From: Xylophilus sp. GW821-FHT01B05
GTDB lineage: Bacteria; Pseudomonadota; Gammaproteobacteria; Burkholderiales; Burkholderiaceae_C
Direction of reading: 5' to 3'
DNA: 64,000 nucleotides
Assembly: GCA_038961845.1 (NCBI GenBank)
Contig: CP152408.1
Location: forward strand, 3,286,001 to 3,350,000
Shown here in pieces: positions 3,681-23,785 of the stretch. Within the stretch, counting starts at the first letter, position 1, and the number at the start of each line of letters is the position of its first letter. The notes below the pieces were generated by a model. That model was not told where the DNA came from. It ran no database searches and saw nothing but the letters and a program-made list of their open reading frames with translations. Both the position numbers and the translations under genes were made by a program.

Positions 3681-5318
3681 TCATGGACCCGGCGCAGTAC
3701 ATGTGTAGTTAGTGGCGAGCTTTCCCGCTGCTGCGTCATCCGAGGGCCCAACGTACCTTGGGTACGTCGGATACTGACACAAGGGGCGAGTAAAGGCGAT
3801 GTCACCACTGGAGGTCAGTTTCGTCGCCAACAATGTATTTGGCGGCGCGTCCCTCGTTACCCAGTCGTCGAGGGACTGCAGCAGATCAGTCGGCGCTGCG
3901 CCGGGGCCATTTCCACAATGCCCAACCCCCGGGGCCACATAGAACCGAACGGCGGAATCTGCCACGGTTTTTCCTCCAACTGCCGAAACCATAGCATCGT
4001 AGTAGTTCGCCGTTCCTTGAGCTGGGTAGAAATCATCAGCGCCTCCGTGCCACATGATTAGTTTGCCTCCACCATTGATAAATGGGCGAATGTCTTTGGA
4101 GGTGGCATTGACGATGGACGCTGTTGAGAACAGGGCATTCAGATCCTGATCGTACGAGAAGGTCAGCGGGTTGACCGCAGCATTTCTCGCGATGATGTTC
4201 TTGATGCTTGTGTCTTGAAAAATGTATCCAGCGCTGAACGTGAAATCCCCGTCGCGTGCAGCACCGGTGGAACCCGCGGGCCACTGCGTATCTTCGTTTC
4301 CAGTGAATGGGTGTCCGACTTGCGTATAGACGTTTGGCGCGATCCCGAACTCTGCAGGCGTTGTCAGGGCGGCGATCGAGTTCAGCTGACCATCTGAAAG
4401 ACATGCGTCTCCCAAGTCGCCTCCGCCGGCGCAGCGTAGGGCCTTCGGATCAAAACCAGACTTGCTACAGGCGGCAGGATTGGAAACTATGCCGTCGGCA
4501 ATGCCATCCAAGGCATCGCACACGTCGCGGACCGATTGTGAAAGAAGTTTTAGCTTTGCGTTAGGTAATGCACCGCCCGGCGCTGCCAGGGCCTTTGCAT
4601 TTCGATTGAACCACCCAATTAGTCCAACAAAGTCATAGGAAGGGTCGCCCGCGATGACGCCGTCAAACAAGTATGGGTAGCGCTGCACTGTCATGAGCGC
4701 TTCTCTGCCACCCGTCGAGCAACCTTCAAAATAGGATCGATCGGGGAATTTTCCATATGCATCTCGAACGACCTCCTTCGCAGATGCCAGCGTAGTGGGG
4801 ATGGACAGATGCCCCCACATGTTCAACGCCAGGGAATCATTGAGGGCAAAGCTGGCATCGAAGGCTGAGCCCTTGTGACCTCCGTCACTTCCTACTGCAG
4901 CGTACCCTTTCGACAAAGCAGCGACCGGTAGCGCCGGAATCGACCCGTTCATACCAGCGCCGCCTTGGTAGTAGAGCTTGCCGTTCCATTTGTCCGGGAA
5001 GAGGATCTCAATGCCTAGTTGCGCGGGAATCGTTCCAGTGACTTGGCAGTACGTGGGTGTGCTTGAGGTTGCGGGAACAACTTTCGCGCTTAACCCAGCT
5101 ACGCCGCCACTCGTTGCCCCGTTGAGTTTCGCGCAGACACTCGCTGCAGATGGAGGCGGGTTGTCGCCTTCTGGTTGCGTTGGAGTAATGGGTGGCGGAG
5201 TAGTGGTACCTACTACCACGGGAACTAGCGAGCTGTAGGAGCCGCCTCCACAGGCTGCGAGAAGGAGACTGATGCCTCCGATGCAACTGCCAAGGCGAAG
5301 TCGATTCGTACGTTTCAA
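3681..5318 (-). CDS. Tannase/feruloyl esterase family lipoprotein (CS-D-HC type)
   Basis: An ester hydrolase of the tannase family (Pfam Tannase; relatives include fungal feruloyl esterase B and MHETase), probably exported and lipid-anchored: the lipobox is LLAAC with Cys at about residue 23. The nucleophile motif is CSTGGREA (Ser near 201), the acid loop is HGGADDFYP, and the catalytic His is in GVGHCGNG (near 467), so the CS-D-HC signature is intact. A DALDGIADG loop is the likely calcium site. I chose a TTG start at 5318 because AAGGGAGAC lies 4 bases upstream; the in-frame ATG at 5342 has no such site. The DNA is visibly more AT-rich than the adjoining transporter genes, which hints at separate acquisition. 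It is the last gene of the leftward transporter block. Confidence 0.88.
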   Translation of the reverse strand: MKRTNRLRLGSCIGGISLLLAACGGGSYSSLVPVVVGTTTPPPITPTQPEGDNPPPSAASVCAKLNGATSGGVAGLSAKVVPATSSTPTYCQVTGTIPAQLGIEILFPDKWNGKLYYQGGAGMNGSIPALPVAALSKGYAAVGSDGGHKGSAFDASFALNDSLALNMWGHLSIPTTLASAKEVVRDAYGKFPDRSYFEGCSTGGREALMTVQRYPYLFDGVIAGDPSYDFVGLIGWFNRNAKALAAPGGALPNAKLKLLSQSVRDVCDALDGIADGIVSNPAACSKSGFDPKALRCAGGGDLGDACLSDGQLNSIAALTTPAEFGIAPNVYTQVGHPFTGNEDTQWPAGSTGAARDGDFTFSAGYIFQDTSIKNIIARNAAVNPLTFSYDQDLNALFSTASIVNATSKDIRPFINGGGKLIMWHGGADDFYPAQGTANYYDAMVSAVGGKTVADSAVRFYVAPGVGHCGNGPGAAPTDLLQSLDDWVTRDAPPNTLLATKLTSSGDIAFTRPLCQYPTYPRYVGPSDDAAAGKLATNYTCTAPGP

Positions 5319-5412
5319 TTTTGTCTCCCTTTGCTTCTTCATGGCAATCTTTTATGGAGGTAGTTTTATTTTCCGAGGAGCCGAGGCTCTACTTCTTCGT
5401 TACGGCGCTGCG

Positions 5413-6393
5413 CTACTTCGCGCGCCGCCGCTCGATGAACGCAATGATCTCGCCCATGATCCCCTTGCGGAACGCCAGCACGCAGATCACGAAGATCAGG
5501 CCCGTGACCATGGTCACCGACTCGCCCAGCGTGCTGAACCAGTCCACCGTGGTGATGCGCGCCAGGAAGTTGCCAAGTTCGCCGATCTTGTTCTCCAGCA
5601 GCACCACCACAGCCGAGCCCATCAGCGGACCCGAGAGCGTGCCCAACCCGCCCACCAGCGTCATCAGGATGACCTGGCCCGAGGCGGTCCAGTGCACGTC
5701 GGACAGCGTGGCGAAGCCCAGCACCAGCGTCTTGAGCGAACCGGCCAGGCCTGACAGCGCCGCTGAAATCACGAAGGCCAGCAGCTTGAAGCGGTTCACG
5801 TCGTAGCCCAGCGACAGCGCGCGCGGCTCGTTCTCCTTGATGCCCTTCAACACCTGCCCGAACGGTGAGTGGACGGTGCGCACGATCAGCAAGAATGCCA
5901 GCACGACCACGACCAGCGCCACGTAGTACATCGTCAGGTCGTTCGACAGGTCGATCAAGCCGAACAGCTTGCCGCGCGGCACGCCCTGCAGGCCGTCTTC
6001 GCCGCCCGTGAACTTGGCCTGCAGCGCGACGAAGAACATCATCTGCGCGAGCGCCAGCGTGATCATCGCGAAGTAGATGCCCTGGCGGCGGATCGCCACC
6101 AGGCCGAAGATCCAGCCCAGAAAACCGCCGGCGAGCGTGCCCGCGATCAAGCCCAACTCGGGCGTGAGGCCCCAGACCTTCATCGCATGGCCCGCGACGT
6201 ACGCGGACCCGCCCAGGAAGGCCGCATGCCCGAACGACAGCAGACCCGTGTAGCCCAGCAGCAGGTTGAACGCCGCCGCGAACAGCGCGAAACACATAAG
6301 CTTCATCACGAACACGGGGTAGGCGCCGAAGAACGGCGCGAGCACCAGCGCGACCAGCAGCAATGTGTAGACGACGGTAGAAATTTTCTTCAT
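5413..6393 (-). CDS. LIV-type ABC transporter permease (LivM family)
   Basis: 326 residues, almost entirely membrane-spanning, with the LivM features AFNLLLGYTGLLSFGHAAFLG near residues 39-58 and LVGGLGTLSGPLMGSA near 258-273. It forms the transmembrane channel together with the LivH-type partner encoded just upstream. The order livG-livF-binding protein-livH-livM on one strand makes a complete high-affinity importer. LIV-type systems of this kind in Burkholderiales often import aromatic acids or amides rather than leucine. Given the neighbouring esterases, an aromatic product is the better guess here; that is inference. Confidence 0.92.
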   Translation of the reverse strand: MKKISTVVYTLLLVALVLAPFFGAYPVFVMKLMCFALFAAAFNLLLGYTGLLSFGHAAFLGGSAYVAGHAMKVWGLTPELGLIAGTLAGGFLGWIFGLVAIRRQGIYFAMITLALAQMMFFVALQAKFTGGEDGLQGVPRGKLFGLIDLSNDLTMYYVALVVVVLAFLLIVRTVHSPFGQVLKGIKENEPRALSLGYDVNRFKLLAFVISAALSGLAGSLKTLVLGFATLSDVHWTASGQVILMTLVGGLGTLSGPLMGSAVVVLLENKIGELGNFLARITTVDWFSTLGESVTMVTGLIFVICVLAFRKGIMGEIIAFIERRRAK

Positions 6394-6469: not shown

Positions 6470-7345
6470 TCATTTTTCTTTGCCGAACAGGCCGGTGGGG
6501 CGAATCAACAGCACGATGACCATGATCACGAACACAACCGTTGACGATGCCTCGGGATAGAAGACCTTGGTGAGCCCTTCGATCACGCCCAATCCCAGGC
6601 CCGTGAGGATGGCGCCCATGATGGAGCCCATGCCGCCGATCACGACCACCGCAAACACCACGATGATGAGGTTCTGTCCCATCAGTGGCGACACCTGCAT
6701 CACCGGCGCCGCCAGCACGCCGGCGAAAGCGGCGAGCGCACAGCCGAAGGCGTAGGTCAGCGTGATCATCAGCGGCACGTTGACGCCGAAGGCTTCCACC
6801 AGCCGTGGGTTCTCGGTGCCGGCACGCAGGTAGGCGCCCAGCCGAGTCTTCTCGATCACGTACCAGGTCGCGAAGCAGACCACCAGCGATGCCACGACCA
6901 CCCATGCGCGGTAGTTGGGCAGCACCATGAAGCCCAGGTCGGTGGCACTGGAGAGGACATCGGGCGCGTCGTAGGGCAGCCCCGACACGCCGTAGACCGA
7001 GCGGAACACGCCCTCGATCAGCAGCGTGAGACCCAGCGTGAGCAGCAGGCCGTAAAGGTGGTCGAGCTTGTAGATCCAGCGCAGCAGCAAGCGCTCGATC
7101 AGCACGCCAAACAGGCCGATGACGAGGGGCGCCACGATCAGCATCACCCAGTAGTTGATGCCGAAATACTCCATCGCCATCCAGGTCAGGATGGCGCCCA
7201 TCATGAACAGCGCGCCGTGCGCGAAGTTAATGACGTTGAGCAGGCCGAAGATCACCGCGAGCCCGAGGCTCAGGATGGCGTAGAAGGAGCCGTTGACCAG
7301 CCCCAGGAGGAGTTGGCTCAAAAGCGCAGGAAGGGAAATGGTCAT
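6470..7345 (-). CDS. LIV-type ABC transporter permease (LivH family)
   Basis: 291 residues and about eight membrane segments. Family marks are LLLGLVNGSFYAILSLGLAV at the N-terminus, LLNVINFAHGALFMMGA, and VVIGGMGSIMGAILTGLGLG towards the C-terminus. It is the second channel subunit of the importer and lies 76 bases before livM and 42 bases after the binding-protein gene in the direction of transcription. No internal oddities are visible, and the length is normal for the family. Confidence 0.92.
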   Translation of the reverse strand: MTISLPALLSQLLLGLVNGSFYAILSLGLAVIFGLLNVINFAHGALFMMGAILTWMAMEYFGINYWVMLIVAPLVIGLFGVLIERLLLRWIYKLDHLYGLLLTLGLTLLIEGVFRSVYGVSGLPYDAPDVLSSATDLGFMVLPNYRAWVVVASLVVCFATWYVIEKTRLGAYLRAGTENPRLVEAFGVNVPLMITLTYAFGCALAAFAGVLAAPVMQVSPLMGQNLIIVVFAVVVIGGMGSIMGAILTGLGLGVIEGLTKVFYPEASSTVVFVIMVIVLLIRPTGLFGKEK

Positions 7346-7387: not shown

Positions 7388-8590
7388 TCACTTCCAGAGA
7401 GCGCATTTCGTTTCGGCCTTGGTCGTGAAGACTTGGTCGCCCGGCAGCGTCTGGAGCACCTTCAGGTAGTCCCAGGGTTGTTTGGATTCGGCCGGCGACT
7501 TGGCTTCGACCAGGTACATGTCGTGGATGAAGCTGCCGTCGGCGCGGATCTGGCCCTTGCCGTAGAAGTCGTCGATCTTCATGCTCTTCAACTGCGCCAT
7601 GACCTTGTCGGCGTCTGTGGTCTTGGCTGCGGCCACAGCCTTCAGGTAGGTCATGGTGGCGGAGTAGTCGGCTGCCTGCACGTCGGTTGGCATGCGCTTG
7701 GTTTTCTCGAAGAAGCGGTTGCCGAACTTGCGCGTGTCGTCGTTCAGGTCCCAATACCAACTGGTGGTGTGCAGCAGGCCTTCGGTGTTCTTCAGGCCCA
7801 GGCTGTGGATGTCAGACAGGAACACCAGCAGGCCGGCGGTCTTCATGGTCTTGTTGATGCCAAATTCCTTGGCGGCCTTGATCGAGTTGATGGTGTCGCC
7901 GCCGGCGTTGGCCAGGCCCAGGATCTGCGCCTTGGAGTTCTGCGCCTGCAGCAGGAATGAGGAGAAGTCCGACGCGTTCAGCGGATGGCGCACCGCGCCC
8001 GCCACCGTGCCCCCCTTGTCCTTCACCACCTTGGTGGTGTCGGCCTCGAGCGCGTGGCCGAAGGCGTAGTCGGCCGTCAGGAAGAACCAGCTTTTGCCGC
8101 CGCGGTCGACCACCGCCGTGCCGGTGCCCTTGGCCAGCGCCACGGTGTCGTAGGCATAGTGCACGGTGTAAGGGCTGCACTGCTCGTTGGTGAGCGCCGA
8201 GCTGCCTGCGCCATTGTTGAAGTACACGCGCTTCTTCTCTTCCGCCACCTTGGCAATGGCCAGCGCGGTGCCGGAATTGGTACCGCCGAAGATCATGGTG
8301 ACGCCGGCCGTGTCGACCCACTCGCGGGCCTTGGAGGCGGCGATGTCGGCCTTGTTCTGGTGGTCGGCGGTCAGCAGCTCGATCGGCTGGCCCAGCACCT
8401 TGCCGCCGAAATCGTCGATGGCCATCTGGATGGCCGTGGCCCCGCCCTTGCCTTCCAGGTCGGCGTACAGGCCCGACAGGTCGGTGACGAAGCCGATCTT
8501 CACTTTTTCCTGCGCCTGCACGGCGCCCGCGCTCATTGCGAGGATGCCGATGGCCGTGGAGATGGCGATGAGGCCGAGTTTCTTGTTCAT
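7388..8590 (-). CDS. Periplasmic substrate-binding protein of LIV-type ABC transporter
   Basis: 400 residues with a Sec signal peptide (MNKKLGLIAIS... cleaved near VQAQ-EKVKIG). The mature start KVKIGFVTDLSGLYADLEG and the type-1 periplasmic binding fold are typical. Length and internal pattern (FGGTNSGTALAIA, YVFNNGAGSS-like segment, TSWYWDL) resemble binding proteins assigned to aromatic acids and other hydrophobic carboxylates rather than LivJ. The gene sits between the ATPase and permease genes, an order common in betaproteobacterial paralogues. It should determine what the operon imports. Confidence 0.9.
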   Translation of the reverse strand: MNKKLGLIAISTAIGILAMSAGAVQAQEKVKIGFVTDLSGLYADLEGKGGATAIQMAIDDFGGKVLGQPIELLTADHQNKADIAASKAREWVDTAGVTMIFGGTNSGTALAIAKVAEEKKRVYFNNGAGSSALTNEQCSPYTVHYAYDTVALAKGTGTAVVDRGGKSWFFLTADYAFGHALEADTTKVVKDKGGTVAGAVRHPLNASDFSSFLLQAQNSKAQILGLANAGGDTINSIKAAKEFGINKTMKTAGLLVFLSDIHSLGLKNTEGLLHTTSWYWDLNDDTRKFGNRFFEKTKRMPTDVQAADYSATMTYLKAVAAAKTTDADKVMAQLKSMKIDDFYGKGQIRADGSFIHDMYLVEAKSPAESKQPWDYLKVLQTLPGDQVFTTKAETKCALWK

Positions 8591-8657: not shown

Positions 8658-9365
8658 TCAGACGCCGAGCAGCTCGGTGAGCACTGGCATCTTGGCTTCG
8701 AGCTCGGCAGCGCCGAACTTCTCGACGATGCGGCCGTGCTCCATCACGTAGAAGCGGTCGGCCAGCGGCGCGGCGAAGCGGAAGTTCTGCTCCACCATGA
8801 CGATGGTGTAGCCCTTGTCGCGCAGCGTGGTGATCATGCGGGCCAGCGCCTGCACGATGACCGGCGCGAGGCCCTCGGAAATCTCGTCGAGCAGGAGCAG
8901 CTTGGCGCCCGTGCGCAGGATGCGCGCGACGGCCAGCATCTGCTGCTCGCCGCCCGACAGGCGCGTGCCCTGGCTGTTGCGGCGTTCGGCCAGGTTGGGG
9001 AACATGGCGTAGATCTCTTCGACCGACATGCCCTGCCCCGCGCCTTTGAGTTCGGGCGGCAGCAGGAGGTTTTCCTCGCATGAGAGGCTGGCGAAGATGC
9101 CGCGCTCCTCAGGGCAGTAGCCGATGCCGAGGTGCGCAATGCGGTGCGTCGGCGTGTCGATGGTCTCTTTGCCGTTGACCTCGATGCTGCCCTTGCGCGC
9201 GCCGGTCAGGCCCATGATGGCCCGCAGCGTGGTGGTGCGGCCCGCGCCGTTGCGGCCTAGCAGCGTGACGACTTCGCCCGGCTGCACGACCATGTCGACG
9301 CCGTGCAGCACATGCGATTCGCCGTACCAGGCCTGGAGCCCTTTGATTTCGAGTGCGGCGGTCAT
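8658..9365 (-). CDS. LIV-type ABC transporter ATPase (LivF family)
   Basis: 235 residues. Walker A is GRNGAGRTT (residues about 37-45), with Arg in the position where most ATPases have Lys (consensus GxxGxGKT). The signature is LSGGEQQMLA and Walker B is LLLLDEISEGL. Each of these should be compared with relatives because the Lys-to-Arg change in Walker A and the 'ISEGL' D-loop are departures from the textbook motif. The start codon overlaps the last base of livG, implying translational coupling. It pairs with LivG to power the importer. Confidence 0.9.
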   Translation of the reverse strand: MTAALEIKGLQAWYGESHVLHGVDMVVQPGEVVTLLGRNGAGRTTTLRAIMGLTGARKGSIEVNGKETIDTPTHRIAHLGIGYCPEERGIFASLSCEENLLLPPELKGAGQGMSVEEIYAMFPNLAERRNSQGTRLSGGEQQMLAVARILRTGAKLLLLDEISEGLAPVIVQALARMITTLRDKGYTIVMVEQNFRFAAPLADRFYVMEHGRIVEKFGAAELEAKMPVLTELLGV

Positions 9366-10135
9366 CAGTGCGCACCCTGCAGTTGGCCGTCAGTGGTGCC
9401 CATGTAGGCCTCCATCACCTGCGGGTTCTTTGAGACTTCGGCGTACGGGCCTTCGGCGAGCACGGCGCCGCGCTGCAGCACGGTGATGGTGTCGGCGATG
9501 GTCGAGACCACGCTCATGTTGTGTTCGACCATCAGGATGGTGCGTCCGGCCGACACGCGCTTGATGAGCTCGGCCACGCGGTGCACGTCTTCATGGCCCA
9601 TGCCCTGCGTCGGTTCGTCGAGCAGCATCAGCTCGGGCTCCATGGCCAGCGTGGTCGCGATCTCAAGGGCGCGCTTGCGGCCGTAGGGCAGGTTCACGGT
9701 CTGTTCGCCGGCGAGTTCTTCGAGGCCCACTTCGGCCAGCAGTTCGCGCGCACGCGCATCGAGCGGCTTGAGCGACTTCTCGCTCTTCCAGAAGTGGTAC
9801 GAGGTGCCGAGGCGCCTTTGCAGGCCCAGCCGCACGTTCTCGAGCAGCGTGAGGTGCGGAAACACGGCCGAGATCTGGAACGAGCGGATGACGCCGCGCC
9901 GCGCGATCTGCGCCGGGCGTTCGCCCGTGATGTCCTGCCCGTTGAACAAGATCGTGCCGGTGGTGGGCTCAAGGAACTTGGTGAGCAGGTTGAAGCAGGT
10001 GGTCTTGCCCGCGCCGTTGGGGCCGATCAGCGCGTGGATGGAGCCACGCACCACCGAGAGATTGACCTTGCTGACCGCGGTGAACCCCTTGAATTCCTTG
10101 GTGAGCTGGCGTGTTTCGAGGATGACGTCGCTCAT
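9365..10135 (-). CDS. LIV-type ABC transporter ATPase (LivG family)
   Basis: 256 residues with Walker A GPNGAGKTT (about 37-45), LPYGRKRALEIA in the place of the LSGGQ signature (usual for LivG) and Walker B LMLLDEPTQGM. The C-terminus has the LivG-type end around PQVMEAYMG. The ATG overlaps the stop of the 64-codon frame upstream (ATGA, 10132-10135), so translation is probably coupled to it. It is the first full transporter gene of the leftward operon. Confidence 0.93.
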   Translation of the reverse strand: MSDVILETRQLTKEFKGFTAVSKVNLSVVRGSIHALIGPNGAGKTTCFNLLTKFLEPTTGTILFNGQDITGERPAQIARRGVIRSFQISAVFPHLTLLENVRLGLQRRLGTSYHFWKSEKSLKPLDARARELLAEVGLEELAGEQTVNLPYGRKRALEIATTLAMEPELMLLDEPTQGMGHEDVHRVAELIKRVSAGRTILMVEHNMSVVSTIADTITVLQRGAVLAEGPYAEVSKNPQVMEAYMGTTDGQLQGAH

Positions 10136-10326
10136 TCCTGCGGTCCACTTGAATGCAAGAACAGAGGAAACCGGCGCGTGAACCCTTGGTTAACCTCGGT
10201 GCCGTACAGACCGTCGGCGCCCGGATGAGCGCCGATGTGTGTGATGACGATGTCCTTGGCTTGGACGCTGATGGCGCCGGCAGCGAGCTGCAGCGGAACA
10301 AGCGAACGTGCGCTCGGAATTTGCAT
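10132..10326 (-). pseudogene. 64-codon frame: probable N-terminal remnant of a periplasmic binding protein
   Basis: A short frame with a very good ribosome site (AGGAGAC 5 bases before the ATG at 10326). It encodes a signal-like N-terminus, then QAKDIVITHIGAHPG and LYGTEVNQGF, which resembles the first strand and helix of a type-1 periplasmic binding protein. After about residue 50 the similarity stops and the frame ends 4 bases into livG. It may be the stub left when a binding-protein gene was deleted, now serving as a translated leader that couples ribosomes into livG. Identification of the family from 35 residues is uncertain. Confidence 0.45.
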
Positions 10327-10403: not shown

Positions 10404-10468
10404 AGTATCGCGGGAGCGTTTTTGCTCCGCAATGGCGTTTGGCGCAACGTCATCGTGCATTGATGCAC
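10404..10468 (-). promoter_or_regulatory. LysR-type operator plus sigma70 promoter of the LIV transporter operon
   Basis: Reading leftwards: palindrome GTGCAT-CA-ATGCAC (10455-10468), then a -35 box TTGCGG (10427-10432), a 17-base spacer, and a -10 box GATACT (10404-10409). The palindrome centre is 52.5 bases upstream of the first base of the -10 box, which places it near -64, the usual recognition site of LysR activators. 59 of 70 bases match the region in front of the tannase gene at 14388 without gaps. Predicted transcription starts near 10397, about 70 bases before the ATG at 10326. Confidence 0.75.
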
Positions 10469-10718
10469 AACGAGCCGTACGAAGATGCGACTCGGATTGC
10501 ACAGGACGGCACCGCAAGGAATTCCCGAGGGAGTTGATTTCCATGGAATCCTGCCCCCGTCACCTCTGGCTGGAAATCAACACTTTTTTGGAGAAAGGAA
10601 TCACGATGCGCATACGGAGAGCGGCGCTCATAGCGCCCTCTGCATCGGGGTACACCGGCGGTGCAAGGCATTGCCGGTGGGGAAGCGTCGGCCGACGCTG
10701 CCGTGTGGGACGGCTGGG
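10469..10718. other. Intergenic stretch without a recognisable gene
   Basis: Between the transporter operator and the stop of the tannase gene at 10719 I see no convincing coding frame. A rightward ATG at 10605 has GGAGAAAGGAATC in front of it and a short basic N-terminus resembling the start of a signal peptide, but the frame loses sense after about 12 codons; it may be the scar of a deleted gene. GGCGCT-CAT-AGCGCC near 10623-10637 is a small hairpin without a T-run. Confidence 0.4.
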
Positions 10719-12431
10719 TTACTGCATCGAGCAGCTGAAGCTCGAGGCGGAGTTGACGTCCCCGCTGCCGTTGTAGCGCGGATAAGCGGGGTAATCGCAG
10801 AGCGGACGCGTGCGGCCGGGCACACCAACGGTGTCGGTCACGATCTGATTCGGTGGCAGCGTGCCTTTCTCGATCCAGTTCTCGAGAGTTGTCAACGAGT
10901 CCCAGGATGCGTTGAAGACGGTGCTGGCCGCATGGCCGTAGCCAGGAATTTCGTAGTAGCGCAGGAACGAGTCGGTGCGGGCATCACCCATCGTCGCGCG
11001 AACGCGGTCGACATACTGCTCCGTCGCCCGCGTGCTGACGAGCGCATCGCTCATGCCGTGTGCGATCAAGATCTTGCCGCCCTTGGATTGGAAGGCCGTG
11101 AGGTCGGTCTTGTTGACGTCCTGAAGGCCGGTCAGCGTGCTGATTCGCGCTTGGTATGGACCGGGGTTCTGCGGGTCGAGTGTCAGCGAGTTGAAGTTCG
11201 CATCCCGCGTCACGAAAAAGCGCACCCACTGATCCCAGAACACGCTGCCGTACGGCGCCGCATTTGGCATCGGGCTGGAAGGTTGGGCGCTGTTCAACGA
11301 AAGGAACGAAACAGCAGCCTGAAGGGGGCTGGCGTTCGGGATACCGAAGTCGGTCCCCCACGTGTTGAAGCCGGGATACTGTGTCTCGCCGCTCGCCAGC
11401 GTGTAGCTGAATGTGATCGGCGTGTTGATGACATCGAACGCCGCGATCTGCGCATCCGACAGGCAGGTGTCGCCGGTGTCAGCGCCCCCCGCGCAGCGCA
11501 GTGGCTGGCCATTCACGGTCGCCGTCGTTGGATTGAAGTTCGCGTTGCAGGCTTTGATATTGCTGATCAGCCCGTCGGCAACACCGTCCAGCGTGTCACA
11601 CGCCTGAATCGACGCGTCGTAAAGCACCTTTCGCTTCGCCGCGTTGGGATACGCGCCAGGCTGCGCGAGCGCCCGCGTGATACGGCCGAACTGAAGATCG
11701 AGGCTGGCGGCCGCTCCGGCCGGGTACAAGGCTATTACACCGTCCCAGTCTTGCGGCCAATCTTGCGCTACTTTGAGCGCTTCGCGGCCACCCGAAGAAC
11801 CCCCGGCAAAGTACGCTTTGGCCGGTCCATTCACGGCATAGCGGGCGTTGATGATCGCGATCGCCACATCGCGCGTCTTCTTCAGCGCGTCCCCGGAGAA
11901 GTTGTTGACGGCCTCGTCGTTGACGCCGAAGGAGCCATCCTGGCTGCCGAGCGCATTTGCCTGATGGCCGGAATCGCTTGCGAATGTCGCGTAGCCACGA
12001 CCAAGCGGAGCTGGCTGATCAGCGGGGCCCACCGGCACGTTGCCGGTCACGTCAGGGATCGTCCCGTCATAGCCACCACCGCCGAACATCATTACCTTGC
12101 CGTTCCAGGTGCTCGGAAGGGCGACCTGCATCAGGATCTTCGGCGCCGCAGAATCGACGGGCGAAATCGCGGCGCCGACCTTGCAGTACTCGGGCGTGGC
12201 ACCCACACCGCTGCCGGCGGCCGCGACCAGCGTCGCAGCGGTGACTATCGCGCCTGTTGTCGGCAGACCGATATTGGCTGCCGCGATCGTCATTCCAGTC
12301 AAATCTCCGCAACTCAACGGCTGCGGCGGCCTGTTGCCACCGTCACCACCACCACAGGCGACCACCAGGGCGGAAGCGGAAAGCGCCACGAAAAGGGCAT
12401 GGCGACCGAGAGAAGGTTGAGGCTGTCGCAT
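10719..12431 (-). CDS. Tannase/feruloyl esterase family lipoprotein lacking the CS-D-HC cysteines (paralogue 1)
   Basis: 570 residues with a lipoprotein signal (ALVVAC, Cys26). It belongs to the tannase family: nucleophile motif GGSSGGREAL, acid loop AHGMSDALVSTRA, histidine motif IPGYGHAAS. In the classical family the residues before Ser and after His are cysteines forming a disulfide; here both are non-Cys (Gly and Ala), so the pair was lost together. The LDGVADGLI calcium-type loop is kept. GGAGACAAC precedes the ATG. It is closely related to the gene at 12661-14388, from which it is separated by 229 bases, and is likely co-transcribed with it. The substrate is unknown, probably an aromatic ester. 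Confidence 0.87.
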   Translation of the reverse strand: MRQPQPSLGRHALFVALSASALVVACGGGDGGNRPPQPLSCGDLTGMTIAAANIGLPTTGAIVTAATLVAAAGSGVGATPEYCKVGAAISPVDSAAPKILMQVALPSTWNGKVMMFGGGGYDGTIPDVTGNVPVGPADQPAPLGRGYATFASDSGHQANALGSQDGSFGVNDEAVNNFSGDALKKTRDVAIAIINARYAVNGPAKAYFAGGSSGGREALKVAQDWPQDWDGVIALYPAGAAASLDLQFGRITRALAQPGAYPNAAKRKVLYDASIQACDTLDGVADGLISNIKACNANFNPTTATVNGQPLRCAGGADTGDTCLSDAQIAAFDVINTPITFSYTLASGETQYPGFNTWGTDFGIPNASPLQAAVSFLSLNSAQPSSPMPNAAPYGSVFWDQWVRFFVTRDANFNSLTLDPQNPGPYQARISTLTGLQDVNKTDLTAFQSKGGKILIAHGMSDALVSTRATEQYVDRVRATMGDARTDSFLRYYEIPGYGHAASTVFNASWDSLTTLENWIEKGTLPPNQIVTDTVGVPGRTRPLCDYPAYPRYNGSGDVNSASSFSCSMQ

Positions 12432-12482
12432 GTTGTCTCCTGCTGTTTATATAAAGGGGCACTACTGGGCGAGTCGAACCGT

Positions 12483-12510
12483 CGGTCTGACGGTCTGACG
12501 GTCTGACGGT
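12483..12510. repeat. Tandem 8-bp repeat (CGGTCTGA x3 plus partial)
   Basis: Three exact head-to-tail copies of CGGTCTGA (12483-12490, 12491-12498, 12499-12506) followed by CGGTG. It lies 52 bases upstream of the tannase start at 12431. Just beyond it, TTGGGC-GCTTCA-GCCCAA (12514-12531) forms a 6-bp hairpin. It could be simple slippage DNA or a cluster of regulator sites; the sequence alone does not decide. Confidence 0.8.
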
Positions 12511-12660
12511 GAATTGGGCGCTTCAGCCCAAATCTGAAAACGTGATGCGGTCGAGTCGGTCATGCGGGATTGCGACCCCCAAGCGGTTGCACCGCCACTT
12601 GGTCGACGGCGCAACGAGCTGATTGCCGAGCCCTTCACACTTCTCGGCCACGGTGCGCGC

Positions 12661-14388
12661 CTACTCCGTCACACAGTTGAAGTTCTGCGCCGAGTTCACG
12701 TCCGCCGACCCGTGGTACCGGGGCCAGCTGGGATAGGGGCACAGAGGTCGGGTGCGCTCCGGCACTGCACCTTTGTCGGCCACAACTTGCTTGCCAGGGG
12801 CGGTACCTTTCTCGACCCAATCCTCCAGTGCCGTCACCGAGTCCCAGCCGGCGTTGAACACGTTGCTGACTACATGGCCGTACCCCGGAATTTCGTAATA
12901 GCGGATGAAGCTGTCCACCTTGGCTGCGCCCATGGATTTGCGCACGCGTTCATAGAACTGCGCGGTGGCGCGCGTGCTCACTAGAGCGTCCTGGGAGCCG
13001 TGTGCCATCAGGATTTTTCCGCCCTTGGCCATGAACGGGGTCAGGTCGCTGACGTTGACGTCTTGGACACGCGTGAGGTCCAGGATGCGCTCTCGCCACG
13101 GACCGGGATCCTGCGGATCCAACGCGAGCGAATTGAAAGTGGGGTCACGAGTGACGAAGTACTTTACCCACTGGTCCCAGAACGTGCTGCCGAACGGCGG
13201 CATCGCCGTGGCGGTTACTGCGGGCATCGGGTTCGCCGGCTGCTCGGTGCCAAGAGAAAGGGTCAACACCGTCGGCTGCAATGGGCCAGCGCCAGGGTTG
13301 CCGAAGTCCGTGCCCCAGGTGTTGAAGCCAGGATAAGTACGCTCACCGCTAGCGACCGCATAGTCCAGCACCAACGGCGTGTTCAATATATTGAAGGCCG
13401 CGATCTGCGCATCGGAAAGGCAAAAGTCACCCGCGTCCACACCACCCTCACAGCGGATCGGTGCGCCGTTGAGCGTCGCGGTGACAGGGTTGAAGCTGGC
13501 ATTGCAGGCCTTCACGTTGCTGATCAGGCCGTCGTCGACACCGTCCAACGCGTCGCACGCAGCGACGGCTGCGTTGTACAGCACCTGGCGCTTGGCGAGG
13601 TTCGGGTAGGCCCCTGGCTTGGCCAGCTCACGTGTCATCCGGCCGAATTGCAGGTTTAGGGTGGCTGCGTTCCAGGCCGGGTACAACACGATAGCGCCGT
13701 CGAAGTCCTGCGGCCAACGTGTCACCGCGAACAGCGCCTCCCTGCCGCCGGTGGAGCCCCCGGTGAAGTAGGTCTTCGTCGCAGTCGCCGCATAACGAGC
13801 CGTAATAATCGTCATCGCCACGTCGCGCGTTTTCTTGAGGGCGTCGCTGGAAAAATTGTTCAGCGCCTCGTCGCTCAAGCCGAAAGTGCCATCCCGGTTG
13901 CCATTGGCATTGGCCTGGTGACCGGAGTCACTGCCGAACGTGGCATAGCCTCGCCCAAGCGGAGTTTGCTTGTCGGCCGGGCCGGCGGGCACGTTCAACG
14001 TGCTCGGGGCCATGATGCCGTTGTACCCACCGCCCGCGAACATCATGGCCTTATTGTTCCAGGCAACCGGCAGGTTCACTTGGAACTTGATCTTGGGTGC
14101 GCGCGAGTCGACCGGGTTGATGTCACCCAGAACCTTGCAATATTCCCCGACAGCGGCTGCGCCAATACCTGCTGCAGGAACGAGCTCCGTGCTGGTCACG
14201 CTGGCGCCATTCGTCGGCATGCCGATGGTCGACCAAGGGATGACCATGCCGTTCAGTTCCTGGCAGTCTTTCGGGGAGGCGAACTGCGCCGTTGGAGGAC
14301 GATCAAACGTCGTGCCGCACGCTGACAAGGCGGCGACGACAACCATCGCGGCGAGAGCGTTCATCACCGCCGAATCGCTTAATTTCAA
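12661..14388 (-). CDS. Tannase/feruloyl esterase family lipoprotein lacking the CS-D-HC cysteines (paralogue 2)
   Basis: 575 residues, lipobox ALSAC (Cys24), so probably anchored in the envelope. Motifs: GGSTGGREALF (nucleophile Ser), MAHGSQDALVSTRA (acid), IPGYGHVVS (His). As in the paralogue at 10719, the cysteines next to Ser and His are replaced (Gly, Val). The calcium-type loop LDGVDDGLI is present. CGGAGACGC-type spacing is weak, but AGGAGACGCAAG lies directly before the ATG. It is the first gene downstream of a LysR-type operator/promoter (14474-14541) and of the LysR gene itself, which makes it the best candidate target of that regulator. Confidence 0.88.
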   Translation of the reverse strand: MKLSDSAVMNALAAMVVVAALSACGTTFDRPPTAQFASPKDCQELNGMVIPWSTIGMPTNGASVTSTELVPAAGIGAAAVGEYCKVLGDINPVDSRAPKIKFQVNLPVAWNNKAMMFAGGGYNGIMAPSTLNVPAGPADKQTPLGRGYATFGSDSGHQANANGNRDGTFGLSDEALNNFSSDALKKTRDVAMTIITARYAATATKTYFTGGSTGGREALFAVTRWPQDFDGAIVLYPAWNAATLNLQFGRMTRELAKPGAYPNLAKRQVLYNAAVAACDALDGVDDGLISNVKACNASFNPVTATLNGAPIRCEGGVDAGDFCLSDAQIAAFNILNTPLVLDYAVASGERTYPGFNTWGTDFGNPGAGPLQPTVLTLSLGTEQPANPMPAVTATAMPPFGSTFWDQWVKYFVTRDPTFNSLALDPQDPGPWRERILDLTRVQDVNVSDLTPFMAKGGKILMAHGSQDALVSTRATAQFYERVRKSMGAAKVDSFIRYYEIPGYGHVVSNVFNAGWDSVTALEDWVEKGTAPGKQVVADKGAVPERTRPLCPYPSWPRYHGSADVNSAQNFNCVTE

Positions 14389-14473
14389 CTTGCGTCTCCT
14401 CGGAGGACTGAGCTTGAATGCGAACCGCTAGAGAACTCAATCCGACGAGGCCTGCGGCAGCGTGGCTCTTTTC

Positions 14474-14541
14474 AGTATCGCGAGGGCGCTTCTGCTCTGC
14501 AACGGCGATTGGCGCAACCCCATCGTGCATGGATGCACGAT
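14474..14541 (-). promoter_or_regulatory. LysR-type operator plus sigma70 promoter of the tannase operon
   Basis: Reading leftwards: a perfect 9-bp-arm palindrome ATCGTGCAT-CC-ATGCACGAT (14522-14541), a -35 box TTGCAG (14497-14502), a 17-base spacer and a -10 box GATACT (14474-14479). The palindrome centre lies 52.5 bases before the first base of the -10 box. The predicted start near 14467 gives a leader of about 80 bases to the ATG at 14388. The same architecture occurs at 10404-10468 and 15544-15608. Confidence 0.78.
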
Positions 14542-14626
14542 GCTGCCCTGCGACTGCGCCGGGGCCCCAGGTGCAATGGGCCGCCCTGCGCCCACCCTAT
14601 GCCCTCCGTAAGGGGAAGCACGAGAT

Positions 14627-15535
14627 TCAGCCCGTGCTCGCTTCGAAGAGCTGTGGCTCCTTCAACACGAGCTGCCGGATGTAATCCCAAGTCAGTCGTA
14701 CTCGCCGGATCTTGAAAAGGTCTTCGGGAGCGGCGAGCCAGAGGGTCCGCGTGACCTGTGGGTTGCCCGGAAACACACTCACGAGGTCAGAGCGCGCCCC
14801 AACGACATACGGAGTGAGGAGAACCAAGCCCATTCCAGCTGCTGCAGCCTCGCGTTGCGCAAGAATGCTGGTCGAGGAGAAAGCACGCTTCGGACGAGCC
14901 ACCACTTCTTGGAGAAAGCGGAAGCGCTCGCTCATCAAGCCGTCGTGCACGTAATCCACAAATTCGTGCGTGGCGACGTCTTCCATGTCGCGGATGGGCG
15001 GCCGGCTCGCGAGATATTCGGGCGAACCGTACAGGTAATAGTTCATATCGAGCAGTCGAGCCACCTTGTAGCGGCCCACTTGGGGCGGCTCCACGGTAAC
15101 GAGGATTTCGACTTCCCGCGTGGCGAGGCTGGGGAACTGCGGTTGTGCCATCAGTTCGACATGCAAGTTGGGGTGAAGCGCTCTAAAAGGTCCCAACCGG
15201 GGAGCGAGGACGCAAATGCCAAAGGCCTCCAACGTACCGACCCGAACGGTGCCCGCAACTTCGTTCGCGTTGGATCGAGTCTCGTCCATCGCGTCGAGGA
15301 GTGCACTCTCCATGGCCTCCGCGTGGGGGACGAGTGCGCGACCGGCGTCTGTCAGCACATAGCCGTTGCGGCGCCGGTCGAACAGCACGGTCCCTAGCTG
15401 ATGCTCGAGGCGATCAATACGACGCGATACGGTCGAATGCTCAACCTGAAGCCGCTCGGCCGCGAGAGTGACCTTTTCAGTCCTTGCGACCTCGAGAAAG
15501 TACCGGACGTCAGTCCACTCAGGAAATTTTGGCAT
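14627..15535 (-). CDS. LysR-type transcriptional regulator, likely controller of the tannase/transport regulon
   Basis: 302 residues from the ATG at 15535. The open frame extends upstream to 15754, but the helix-turn-helix begins right after this ATG (TDVRYFLEVARTEKVTLAAE, then VEHSTVSRRIDRLE and FDRRRNGYVLTDAG), and AAGAGAC precedes it. The effector domain follows from about residue 88. A GTGC-N6-GCAC palindrome lies 9 bases before the start codon (15544-15557), suggesting autorepression while activating the divergent SDR. Matching palindromes stand before the tannase and transporter genes. The ligand is unknown. Confidence 0.9.
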   Translation of the reverse strand: MPKFPEWTDVRYFLEVARTEKVTLAAERLQVEHSTVSRRIDRLEHQLGTVLFDRRRNGYVLTDAGRALVPHAEAMESALLDAMDETRSNANEVAGTVRVGTLEAFGICVLAPRLGPFRALHPNLHVELMAQPQFPSLATREVEILVTVEPPQVGRYKVARLLDMNYYLYGSPEYLASRPPIRDMEDVATHEFVDYVHDGLMSERFRFLQEVVARPKRAFSSTSILAQREAAAAGMGLVLLTPYVVGARSDLVSVFPGNPQVTRTLWLAAPEDLFKIRRVRLTWDYIRQLVLKEPQLFEASTG

Positions 15536-15543
15536 GTCTCTTC

Positions 15544-15608
15544 GTGCTTTTTTGCACCATAGTTTTGCATGGTTTGCCGTAGCTGCGAAGAGGAGGAAGT
15601 CAGATACT
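15544..15608 (+). promoter_or_regulatory. LysR-type operator plus promoter of the SDR operon
   Basis: GTGC-TTTTTT-GCAC (15544-15557) is followed by a -10 box GATACT (15603-15608), with the palindrome centre exactly 52.5 bases upstream of it, the same as in the two leftward promoters at 10404 and 14474. An ungapped alignment also keeps TTGC and GCCGT in between. The hexamer at the -35 position (15580-15585, TAGCTG) is poor, consistent with dependence on an activator. The operator also lies between lysR and its own promoter region. Confidence 0.72.
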
Positions 15609-15672: not shown

Positions 15673-15759
15673 ATGAACGCTGCCGATTGGCCAGTGCGCG
15701 ATGAATTGAGAGACCACCTAACGGCGCTGGCCGATCTGCGCAAGGCGGGGGCACACTGA
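15673..15759 (+). CDS. 28-residue frame coupled to the SDR gene
   Basis: ATG at 15673 with CAGGAGACG 7 bases upstream; the peptide begins MNAADWPVRDEL and ends ALADLRKAGAH. Its TGA overlaps the SDR's ATG (TGATG, 15757-15761), so ribosomes could pass straight on. I do not recognise the peptide. It may be a genuine small protein, a translational coupling leader, or the two ends of a gene with an internal deletion. It falls within the leader of the LysR-type promoter at 15544-15608. Confidence 0.5.
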   Translation: MNAADWPVRDELRDHLTALADLRKAGAH

Positions 15760-16550
15760 TGTCAAAGCCTCAAATGGCGCAACGCCTCAAGGTGGCGGCC
15801 GTTACCGGTGCGGGGTCCGGCATCGGCGAAGCAGCCGCGATGAAGCTGGCGGAAGATGGCTTTCACGTCGCCGTCATCGACATCCAGAGCGACAAGGTCA
15901 GCGCCGTGGCGCGGGCGATCGAAGCGATCGGGGGGCAGGCTCTTGCGCTGGTGATGGACGTTCGACAGGCCGACTCGGTCGATCGGGCTTTCGAGGCGAT
16001 CGAGAAGTGGCGAAAGTGCCCGGACGTTTTAGTGAACAGCGCCGGGATCATCAACGTCGTGCCGCTGCTTGACTGCCAGGCAAGCGACTTCAACACCATC
16101 ATGGAAGTGAACGTGACTGGTACCTTCCTGTGCGCGCAGCGTGCAGCCAAAGGAATGATCGCCCAGCGGTACGGACGCATCGTTAATCTGACCTCCATCA
16201 GCGCCGAACGCGCCGGCATCGGCAGGGTTGCCTATGGCACGTCCAAGGCCGCCGTCGCAGGGCTTACTCGGCAACTCGCGATGGAGCTTGGTGCCTACGG
16301 AATCACTGCAAACTCAGTCGCCCCGGGCCCAGTCAGCACCCCGCTGACCGAGGAGATCTACACGCCCGACACGAAGCGCGCGTTCGAGAACATGATTCCG
16401 GCGAAGCGCCTTGGGACGGTCGGTGACGTGGCGAGTGCTATCGCCTTCCTCGCCAGCGAGCCAGCCGCTTACATCAACGGCGTGCTGCTGGCCGTAGATG
16501 GAGGTTACCTCGCCGCCGGTGTAGGCGTGACCGCAGGACTGCAATCCTGA
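15759..16550 (+). CDS. Short-chain dehydrogenase/reductase (SDR)
   Basis: 263 residues of the classical SDR type: NAD(P)-binding TGAGSGIG (residues about 16-23), NSAG (about 91-94), catalytic Ser in LTSIS and YGTSK with Tyr and Lys. The VIDIQ end of strand beta-2 has an acidic residue, favouring NAD over NADP. It probably oxidises or reduces an alcohol/ketone made from the compound handled by the tannase block. It is divergent from lysR and shares its operator; the translation start overlaps the 28-codon frame. Confidence 0.9.
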   Translation: MSKPQMAQRLKVAAVTGAGSGIGEAAAMKLAEDGFHVAVIDIQSDKVSAVARAIEAIGGQALALVMDVRQADSVDRAFEAIEKWRKCPDVLVNSAGIINVVPLLDCQASDFNTIMEVNVTGTFLCAQRAAKGMIAQRYGRIVNLTSISAERAGIGRVAYGTSKAAVAGLTRQLAMELGAYGITANSVAPGPVSTPLTEEIYTPDTKRAFENMIPAKRLGTVGDVASAIAFLASEPAAYINGVLLAVDGGYLAAGVGVTAGLQS

Positions 16551-17021: not shown

Positions 17022-17741
17022 TCAATCAGGCTGAAAGAACGGCGCCATGCGCTGCCGGGAACATTCCAGGTGATGCCGCATTGCGTCATGCGCCTGCTCG
17101 GCATTGCCTGAACGCAGCGCCTCGACGATGAGCGCATGCTCATGGATCGCCTCCTGCGTCACCTGCACATGGAAGCGCAGCCGAAACAGATGCATATGCG
17201 AATGCAGGCGGGCTAATGTCTCGACGATGAGGTCGTTGCCACTATGGCGGGCGATCCAGTTGTGGAACTCGGCATCCTGCACTGCGAACTTGCCATAGGC
17301 CACCTTGGCGTCATCGGCATCGGGCCGCTCCATGCCGGCCACGATGGCATCCAGCTCTACATCGTCCTTGGCCTGCAGCCCACGCGCCGCCAAGAAGGCG
17401 GCGTGCGGCTCCAGCAACAGGCGCATTTCGTAGATCTGCGAGAAGCGGTTTTGGCTGGGCATGGGCGCCGCGCTGTAGCCAATGTTGTGGGTCTTGACGA
17501 CCAAGCCCTCGTTCTCCAGCCGTATCAGGGCGGCGCGGATGGGCGTTTGCGACACCCCCAGGTCGCGCACTAGCGCATCGATCGCGATGCGGCTGCCCGG
17601 TGCGATCTTCAGCGAGATCAGTTGGGACAGAAGGCTTTCATAGACCTCGTCACCCAGGGACGCGCGCCGGATCACGCCGGGACTGGCGTCTTGGTCCAGG
17701 TTCACCAACAGCTTGCTCAGCTTGGAGTCGACGGTTGACAT
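17022..17741 (-). CDS. GntR-family regulator (FCD subfamily)
   Basis: 239 residues from the ATG at 17741 (a longer frame to 17792 lacks the usual context; GGAG lies 9 bases before this ATG). The N-terminal winged helix includes SLGDEVYESLLSQLISLKIAPGS and VSQTPIRAALIRLENEGLV. The C-terminal FCD domain has the metal/ligand residues in EFHNWIARHSGN, RLHSHMH and EHALIVEAL. It is divergent from the dehydrogenase cluster starting at 17826, and a palindrome suited to a GntR dimer lies between them. It is most simply a repressor relieved by a carboxylate intermediate of that pathway. Confidence 0.9.
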   Translation of the reverse strand: MSTVDSKLSKLLVNLDQDASPGVIRRASLGDEVYESLLSQLISLKIAPGSRIAIDALVRDLGVSQTPIRAALIRLENEGLVVKTHNIGYSAAPMPSQNRFSQIYEMRLLLEPHAAFLAARGLQAKDDVELDAIVAGMERPDADDAKVAYGKFAVQDAEFHNWIARHSGNDLIVETLARLHSHMHLFRLRFHVQVTQEAIHEHALIVEALRSGNAEQAHDAMRHHLECSRQRMAPFFQPD

Positions 17742-17763
17742 GGTGAGGCTCCGAAAAGATGGC

Positions 17764-17818
17764 TTGACACAGGATGGTGGCAACCATACCATTAATTAAA
17801 TCGTATATCCGATCGGAT
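17764..17818 (+). promoter_or_regulatory. Promoter and candidate GntR operator for the dehydrogenase cluster
   Basis: TTGACA (17764-17769), a 17-base spacer and TACCAT (17787-17792) form a good sigma70 promoter reading rightwards. A perfect 12-bp palindrome ATCCGATCGGAT (17807-17818) follows at about +8 to +20, where a bound repressor would block transcription. The region is markedly AT-rich compared with its surroundings. The gap to the ATG at 17826 has no Shine-Dalgarno. Confidence 0.65.
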
Positions 17819-17825
17819 TTTATAT

Positions 17826-18848
17826 ATGGCAGTTGTGGAAGCTATTCCCATCCCCTATCCCACCGTCCAAGCGCACTGCGTACGGGCACTGACAGTTCAC
17901 GGCGTACCCGAAGACAACGCCCGCATCCAGACAGAACTGCTGCTGGAGGCGGAGCTGCGCGGCCGCCCATCCCACGGCGTGATGCGGCTGCCCCGGGTGA
18001 TCGAGCGCATCCGCAATGGCGTGGCGGACCCGGTGCAAACCGGCTTGCATACCTGGCGCGGCAGCGCCCTGCTGCAGGTCGATGGCGCCAAGGGCCTCGG
18101 GCCGGTGGTGGCGCTTGCAGCACTGCAAGAGCTTTCCTCCCGGGCCCGGGAGACAGGGCTGACCGCCGCCGTCATCCATGACAGCAACCATCTGGGAATG
18201 CTGGCGCTGTACGCGGAACGCATCGCGCAGCAGGGACAAATACTCATCGCTCTGTCGACCAGCGAAGCCCTGGTCCACCCCTGGGGCGGGCGGCGCGCCT
18301 TGATCGGAACCAACCCGATCGCGATAGGCGTGCCCGCCAAGCCCCTGCCCTTCGTGCTCGACATGGCGACGAGCGCGGTATCCATGGGGCAGATCCACGA
18401 CTACGCCACCCGCGGCCGGCCACTGCAGCCCGGCTGGGCGCTGGACTCGCGCGGGAACCCAACGGTGGATGCGCAGGCGGCTACGTCCGGCGCGATCGCC
18501 CCCTTCGGCGATGCCAAGGGCTATGCGCTGGGGCTGGCTTTCGAGGTGATGGTGGCGAGCCTGACCGCGTCAGCCACGGGCACGCAGGTGTGCGGCACCC
18601 TGGACTCCCGGCAGCCGTGCAACAAGGGCGATGTCTTCATAGTGCTGGAACCCGCATCAAGTGCGATGGCGGACCACATCACCGCGTACCTCGACGAGAT
18701 CCGCGCATGCGCTCCGCGCGATCCCGGCAAGCCGGTGGTCGTGCCCGGGGACCGCGCCCATATGCAGCGTGAACGCAGCCTGCGCGACGGCCTGCTGCTG
18801 GCCCCATCGGTATGGGACGCGATCTGCGGCCTTGCCCAATCCACTTGA
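17826..18848 (+). CDS. Malate/L-lactate dehydrogenase family (Ldh2-type) oxidoreductase
   Basis: 340 residues. Family marks are RPSHGVMRLPR (residues about 47-57) with the conserved His, VIHDSNHLGML (catalytic His region), GTNPIAIGVP, DMATSAVSMGQI and GDAKGYALGLAFE. These NAD(P)-dependent enzymes reduce or oxidise 2-hydroxyacids (malate, lactate, ureidoglycolate, sulfolactate types). The C-terminus is normal. No ribosome site is visible before the ATG at 17826, so translation may be leaderless-like or start downstream. First gene of the GntR-linked cluster; 20 bases separate it from the next gene. Confidence 0.9.
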   Translation: MAVVEAIPIPYPTVQAHCVRALTVHGVPEDNARIQTELLLEAELRGRPSHGVMRLPRVIERIRNGVADPVQTGLHTWRGSALLQVDGAKGLGPVVALAALQELSSRARETGLTAAVIHDSNHLGMLALYAERIAQQGQILIALSTSEALVHPWGGRRALIGTNPIAIGVPAKPLPFVLDMATSAVSMGQIHDYATRGRPLQPGWALDSRGNPTVDAQAATSGAIAPFGDAKGYALGLAFEVMVASLTASATGTQVCGTLDSRQPCNKGDVFIVLEPASSAMADHITAYLDEIRACAPRDPGKPVVVPGDRAHMQRERSLRDGLLLAPSVWDAICGLAQST

Positions 18849-18868
18849 CCCTCCAGACGACATCCACC

Positions 18869-20095: not shown

Positions 20096-20125
20096 ACCAT
20101 TCTTTCCCTGAAACCTTCACCTCCC

Positions 20126-21574: not shown

Positions 21575-21615
21575 CTAGTCACTGTCATTGGAAAGCACTG
21601 GAGACATCAACTCAC

Positions 21616-22701: not shown

Positions 22702-22748
22702 CCCCTGCCAGCACGCAGGCCGAAAAGAAAACCCAAGGAGACAAATCC

Positions 22749-23735: not shown

Positions 23736-23785
23736 CAAGCACAGGTGTGTGTCCCGCATTCCGGCTTTCGCGCAATACTGCAGCC

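Follow-up and report, generated by a model that had tools for sequence, protein, structure and literature searches.

A LysR-type regulator predicted to control tannase-family lipoprotein, LIV-type importer and dehydrogenase genes through one operator design in Xylophilus

We analysed a 64-kb stretch of DNA from Xylophilus sp. GW821-FHT01B05 (64,000 nucleotides of contig CP152408.1, hereafter the window), in which three promoters around a gene for a LysR-type transcriptional regulator (LTTR) carry the same operator design. Each has an exact GTGC-N6-GCAC palindrome at a fixed distance ahead of a GATACT -10 hexamer, and they face, respectively, a gene for a short-chain dehydrogenase/reductase (SDR), a pair of tannase-family genes (tan1-tan2) and a LIV-type transporter operon that ends in a third tannase-family gene (livGFKHM-tan3). 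Judging from the DNA and its relatives, we consider it highly probable that the LysR protein binds all three sites, activates the three units and represses its own gene. Such a regulon is new, although of a known LTTR type.

Three sites of one design around lysR

The regulator and the elements of the three promoters are as follows (matrix scores are explained below).

14627..15535, - strand: lysR regulator, HTH_1 and LysR_substrate (Pfam E 8.7e-20 and 1.5e-29; orthologues 57-68%)
15544..15557, + strand: operator 3 (GTGCTTTTTTGCAC), SDR promoter; exact palindrome, matrix score 32.2
15565..15568, + strand: KTGC element (TTGC), N7 past operator 3, resembling an activation binding site (ABS); spacing as in relatives
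15603..15608, + strand: -10 GATACT, SDR promoter
14525..14538, - strand: operator 2 (GTGCATCCATGCAC), tan1-tan2 promoter; exact palindrome, matrix score 34.8
14474..14479, - strand: -10 GATACT, tan1-tan2 promoter
10455..10468, - strand: operator 1 (GTGCATCAATGCAC), LIV promoter; exact palindrome, matrix score 43.0
10404..10409, - strand: -10 GATACT, LIV promoter

An earlier note on this DNA had reported three such palindromes at a constant 52.5 bases from GATACT, and both positions and spacing proved exact: the dyad centres lie at 10461.5, 14531.5 and 15550.5, and in every case the hexamer's first base is 52.5 bases away. The palindrome alone is mildly enriched in the window (9 against 4.1 expected, with 2 of 100 shuffles reaching 9). 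Combined with GATACT it is rare. The genome-wide search that the note had proposed, with spacings of N40 to N52 allowed, returned three matches in the whole 5.83-Mb genome, all at N45 and all of them the window sites, and the reversed control pattern gave none. Among 399 genomes of the family, 11 carry the palindrome followed by GATACT at N44-46, three matches falling in the genome itself and 12 in ten others together. The motif is rare among relatives (12 matches in 398 other genomes), yet not confined to this genome. Of the loci with those 12 matches, L062 (at G209:C1:1395655) alone exceeds 10 on the operator matrix introduced below, with 20.5. These genome-wide tests covered exact matches to the patterns. 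A scan of the region for consensus sigma-70 promoters found none, against 1.1 in shuffled sequence, and speaks neither for nor against the proposal.

The LysR product passes the Pfam gathering score for both HTH_1, at its N-terminus, and LysR_substrate, at its C-terminus. In LTTRs the recognition dimer usually sits near -65. The mechanism that we infer comprises binding, effector-dependent activation, and a route of ester cleavage, import and oxidation. The three dyads would form the recognition part of an ordinary LTTR operator, with their centres near -65 if transcription starts seven bases past GATACT, and a second LysR contact at the KTGC element seven bases further on, beside a weak -35, would provide the activation site. 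Effector-bound LysR would then recruit RNA polymerase at the SDR, tan1-tan2 and livGFKHM-tan3 promoters. The operator 3 dyad lies 9-22 bp before the lysR start codon and therefore suits autorepression, so that LysR on this dyad would limit its own synthesis. On the metabolic side, the lipoprotein esterases may release an acid outside the inner membrane, which the LIV transporter would import and the SDR enzyme oxidise. For LTTRs, three papers (PMC5002191, PMC6441110, PMC9942251) describe a layout of recognition and activation binding sites (RBS and ABS) as well as autorepression through overlap.

Conservation of the design beside orthologous regulators

GTDB representative contigs contained 28 loci that code for a relative of the LysR protein, 19 of them at 59-68% identity, and a plasmid collection gave 17 records, from which five were taken (57-68%). 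The resulting set of 24 loci, one of whose plasmid members (L074) closely repeats another locus (L031), left aside nine contig loci at 28-33% as well as 12 of the plasmid records, of which three were at 61-68% and nine at 40-43%. The orthologues, 57-68% identical to the window protein, come from Burkholderiales and from two Agrobacterium hosts, in the latter on plasmids.

At most of the 24 loci GTGC-N6-GCAC occurs just upstream of the lysR start pointing away from the gene, after the lysR stop pointing onwards, or at both places. The design in relatives is GTGC-N6-GCAC-N7-KTGC followed, N43-46 past the palindrome, by a -10-like hexamer (CATAAT, GATAAT, TAGTAT, TAGCAT and others). Under a strict rule demanding the full architecture with at most one mismatch in eleven anchor bases, the relatives' 442 kb contain 38 sites, with at least one in 21 of the 24 loci and two in 17, while the same loci read backwards contain none.

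We built a weight matrix from 25 non-redundant sites of the relatives, spanning the palindrome region and the -10 and using no window sequence. Run over both strands of the window, it ranked the three sites first to third (43.0, 34.8 and 32.2), the next score being 6.9 and the best in the reversed window 3.2. It also added both sites of L077 (40.3 and 29.2) to those found by the rule. The shorter pattern of palindrome, N7 and KTGC occurs at 21 places in the genome, and the loci of the other 18 score no higher than 9.1. A further 127 loci yielded 18 sites: ten in five loci from the relatives' own genomes, four beside paralogous LysR genes, three in loci that had been chosen by the GATACT pattern, and one weak one in L143. 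Phylogenetic footprinting thus strongly supports a regulatory role for the predicted sites.

In a tree, 22 LysR sequences form one group with support of 100/100 against 14 paralogues of 35-43% identity. With midpoint rooting the window protein, which lies inside this group and has Operator-N7-KTGC with a -10 at N43-46 near its gene, branches near the base of the group, next after L040. The helix-turn-helix segment HSTVSRRI (last residue allowed as printed) is the same in 19 of the 22 ingroup rows, L040, L077 and L078 differing. The paralogue loci at 35-43% identity (L002-L016) also score above 8 on the matrix in 11 of 15 cases, within about 90 bases of one LysR gene end, at dyads of a similar kind (TTGC-N6-GCAA and variants) that keep the onward spacing. 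The layout therefore seems older than its GTGC version, and the wider LysR group seems to share it. A literature search found no account of the regulon, which the earlier note had called undescribed, or of this LysR group's operator, most subscription papers lying outside its reach.

Promoter copies, alternative readings and known systems

The two leftward promoters, of tan1 and the LIV operon, are probably copies of one another. Their best ungapped match covers 72 of 88 positions (82%); it starts exactly at palindrome base 1 and tails off some 20 bp beyond the -10, and the sequence before it is unrelated. The gapless match of 59 of 70 in the earlier note is obtained by starting two bases earlier; from palindrome base 1 it is 58 of 70. 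No third copy of the 88-bp stretch was found in the genome (next match E 0.49), and the SDR promoter cannot be aligned with the two beyond the motif. Compared with relatives, the leftward promoters score 27.3 and 26.8 against promoters of CoA-transferase genes and 24.0 and 23.9 against the other class, which is only suggestive of a leaning towards the former.

Several observations weigh against the proposed regulon. Because the tan1 and LIV promoters are apparent duplicates, they are not independent and represent a single event. At the SDR promoter the -35 is poor, and we rejected this promoter as kin of the relatives' divergent promoters, since its mean score against these was 22.6 of 45, compared with 24.4 against the other class. 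The dyad is even-spaced (T-N10-A, 14 bp), whereas the usual LTTR motif is T-N11-A. Finally, two of the 24 relative loci, L034 and L038, have no site within the locus by either rule or matrix. The genomes of both have divergent pairs of palindrome plus KTGC elsewhere, that of the L034 genome (L095) passing the full rule. This pair (L095/L114, at G427:C1:35767-36014) and the orthologous lysR are on different contigs, which suggests a split regulon in that genome.

The duplication bears on two other readings. The dyads could be real LysR operators that act only at the SDR and tan1 promoters, the LIV copy being a leftover of duplication with no regulatory role; its 82% likeness to the tan1 promoter, and a 64-aa open reading frame (ORF) of unplaced kinship that separates it from livG, would fit this. 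However, the LIV site scores highest of the three and keeps all anchor bases, and LIV genes adjoin several orthologous lysR genes, though most binding proteins there are not close to that of the window, so we regard this reading as unlikely. The arrangement might even be coincidence, with one chance motif copied once and joined by one unrelated look-alike, given that two of the three promoters are copies and the palindromes alone are only mildly enriched. This is extremely improbable: the spaced motif has a background frequency of about 0.03 per genome, and the recovery of all three sites by an independent matrix built on relatives alone speaks strongly against it.

It is also possible in principle that another regulator binds the dyads and that the adjoining lysR is incidental. 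The genome has 39 scored LysR-like matches among 167 candidates, and binding of this particular LysR is itself a prediction. Yet the operator design accompanies lysR genes of this group in different genera and on plasmids, even as the other genes change, and eight 20-kb loci with tannase homologues (61-75% identity) and no such lysR have no site, which leaves very little room for such a regulator. That the LysR protein is mainly a repressor at these promoters seems improbable as well, since activating LTTRs have this layout, with the dyad near -65 and a half-site adjoining a weak -35. In its favour, the dyad on the SDR side lies within the lysR leader, a place suited to autorepression, and MmsR is believed to regulate in both directions, positive and negative (PMC6441110).

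Among characterised systems, the divergently acting LTTR activators GcvA, OxyR, IlvY and CynR (PMC5002191) have a divergent target, an upstream dyad, a contact beside the -35 and overlap with the regulator's own start region, all as predicted here. The window differs in its even 14-bp GTGC-N6-GCAC in place of T-N11-A, in having three promoters and in unrelated cargo. MmsR of Pseudomonas denitrificans, an LTTR that responds to 3-hydroxypropionate and drives mmsA, has a half-site consensus, AATGTGCAA, with a GTGCA core in common with the window, but its arms are 15 bases apart and its dyad is centred at -79 (PMC6441110). GalR, from gallate catabolism in Pseudomonas putida, is alike in that one LysR activator serves two promoters of an aromatic-acid cluster with a transporter; it differs in that the transporter belongs to the major facilitator superfamily, the operator resembles CTATA-N9-TATAG and the cluster, as described in the available part of the source, has no tannase (PMC9942251).

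Also comparable is a module of lysR, CoA-transferase A and B, enoyl-CoA hydratase, a 3-hydroxyisobutyrate-dehydrogenase-like enzyme and GntP or LIV genes, in Achromobacter, Cupriavidus, Comamonas and others (L031-L049, L074-L078), with the orthologous LysR, the same operator-promoter design and usually two sites. These loci contain no close relative of tan1 or tan2 (one 33% match, in L032), whereas the window locus lacks CoA-transferase genes.

Predicted target genes and their counterparts in relatives

The genes placed under the three promoters are listed here.

15759..16550, + strand: SDR-family dehydrogenase (adh_short_C2 E 3.6e-64)
12661..14388, - strand: tan1, predicted lipoprotein of the tannase/feruloyl-esterase family (PF07519 E 5.7e-117)
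10719..12431, - strand: tan2, paralogue of tan1, 62% identical (PF07519 match)
9365..10135, - strand: livG-type ABC ATPase (ABC_tran, BCA_ABC_TP_C)
8658..9365, - strand: livF-type ABC ATPase (Pfam)
7388..8590, - strand: LIV-type periplasmic binding protein (Peripla_BP_6 E 1e-109)
6470..7345, - strand: livH-type permease (Pfam)
5413..6393, - strand: livM-type permease (Pfam)
3681..5342, - strand: tan3, last gene of the LIV operon, a third predicted lipoprotein of the tannase family (PF07519 E 8.7e-94)

The earlier note had one LysR protein controlling an SDR operon, a tannase operon and a LIV transporter operon. The operators of orthologues and the relatives-only matrix support such joint control as a prediction, with the make-up of the units corrected. 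The SDR promoter stands, while its unit looks like a single gene plus a 28-aa ORF; the LIV unit holds the transporter genes together with tan3, which had been missed; and PF07519 fits the tannase unit, although "tannase" is a family name only, two of the three proteins lacking the family's usual cysteine pair. The best matrix score ahead of tan2 is -13.8, so that no operator was found there. None of the best 25 of 232 NCBIfam models matching the SDR protein reached its cut-off.

Two small ORFs lie between promoters and genes. One of 28 codons (MNAADWPVRDELRDHLTALADLRKAGAH; 15673-15759) stands between the SDR promoter and gene, its stop overlapping the SDR start (TGATG), and has no convincing relative among the fetched loci. 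The other, of 64 codons (10132-10326, - strand), stands between the LIV promoter and livG, its stop overlapping the livG start (ATGA); an impression by eye that it might be a binding-protein fragment was rejected, as it matched no Pfam family and no convincing relative. A short tandem repeat with a unit of about GGTCTGAC (by eye) occupies 12480-12512 in the gap between tan1 and tan2. Further along the window, 17022-24508 carries a separate regulator of GntR/FCD type. Its neighbours encode four dehydrogenases (Ldh_2-type, iron alcohol, aldehyde and tartrate/isopropylmalate-type) and a TctC binding protein, and no site of the GTGC-N6-GCAC design was found there.

The products of tan1-tan3 match PF07519 at 315-392 bits (cut-off 29.8), and each N-terminus has a run of hydrophobic residues up to a lipobox-like cysteine (LSAC, VVAC and LAAC, by eye). 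The closest solved chains to tan1 are of MHETase, and MHETase (6qg9) and feruloyl esterases have in common with tan1-tan3 both PF07519 and the nucleophile motif G-x-S-x-G-G. A cysteine pair beside the catalytic serine and histidine is usual in this family, in agreement with the MHETase alignment, where GCSEGG and GMNHC stand opposite GGS and GYGH[VA] of tan1 and tan2. Only tan3 of the three keeps both cysteines (GCSTGG, GVGHC); tan1 and tan2 have GGS[TS]GG and GYGH[VA] and lack the pair. Tannase activity of the three predicted enzymes is uncertain. Homologues of tan1 at E 1e-80 or better occur in 57 of the 399 family genomes, this one included, and many family genomes contain the tan1/tan2 subfamily without cysteines flanking the catalytic serine and histidine. 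The nucleophile motif GGSTGGRE is present in 29 of 29 homologous loci (L120-L148).

In the eight tannase-homologue loci cited above, taken with about 9 kb on each side, the rule finds no site, the matrix gives nothing above 8, and such a lysR is absent; LIV genes occur nearby in one of them, L154. Of 29 loci taken more narrowly, with about 1.5 kb to either side (less at contig ends), one gave a weak match, L143. Three plasmid loci annotated for context had no neighbours of interest in common.

Elsewhere the regulator is more commonly partnered with CoA-transferase genes. In relatives the promoter downstream of lysR usually faces a 3-oxoacid CoA-transferase A/B pair (in L043 after a binding-protein gene), and the Achromobacter pairs score above the cut-off for TIGR02429 and TIGR02428. 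The divergent promoter faces a GntP permease or a LIV operon with enoyl-CoA hydratase and the 3-hydroxyisobutyrate-dehydrogenase-like enzyme. The equivalent positions in the window are held by tan1-tan2, which stands after lysR instead of a CoA-transferase AB operon, and by the SDR gene, with livGFKHM-tan3 at the third promoter. Orthologous lysR genes in L040 and L043 have as neighbours binding proteins 47-50% identical to that of the window; the Achromobacter-type LIV operons have binding proteins that are not closely similar to it. The genome's own nearest CoA-transferase A homologue (70%, at 2531756) has no operator within about 1.5 kb, and none was found near its best CoA-transferase and enoyl-CoA hydratase homologues (L157-L163).

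Given these commoner partners, and the lack of site and such lysR at the eight tannase-homologue loci, the link between hydrolase and regulator appears local to this lineage, as far as sampled. On sequence comparison the operator and regulator are old, and the esterases probably came under their control within this lineage, with one promoter arising as an 88-bp copy of another. We tentatively suggest, as a possibility rather than an expectation, that the promoter-lysR-promoter block acts as a portable control unit, with a constant effector and exchangeable enzymes: in most of the sampled lineages it would serve the CoA activation of an organic acid, and here outer esterases plus an importer that would supply the same acid. 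If this were true, the acid of the CoA-transferase pathway would name the product released by tan1-tan3.

The analysis thus provides an operator definition for an apparently undescribed LysR group across Burkholderiales and two Agrobacterium plasmids, by which regulons may be recognised in sequence. A subfamily of MHETase-like lipoproteins is also linked to a predicted regulator, importer and dehydrogenase, so that their substrate would become testable by way of the inducer.

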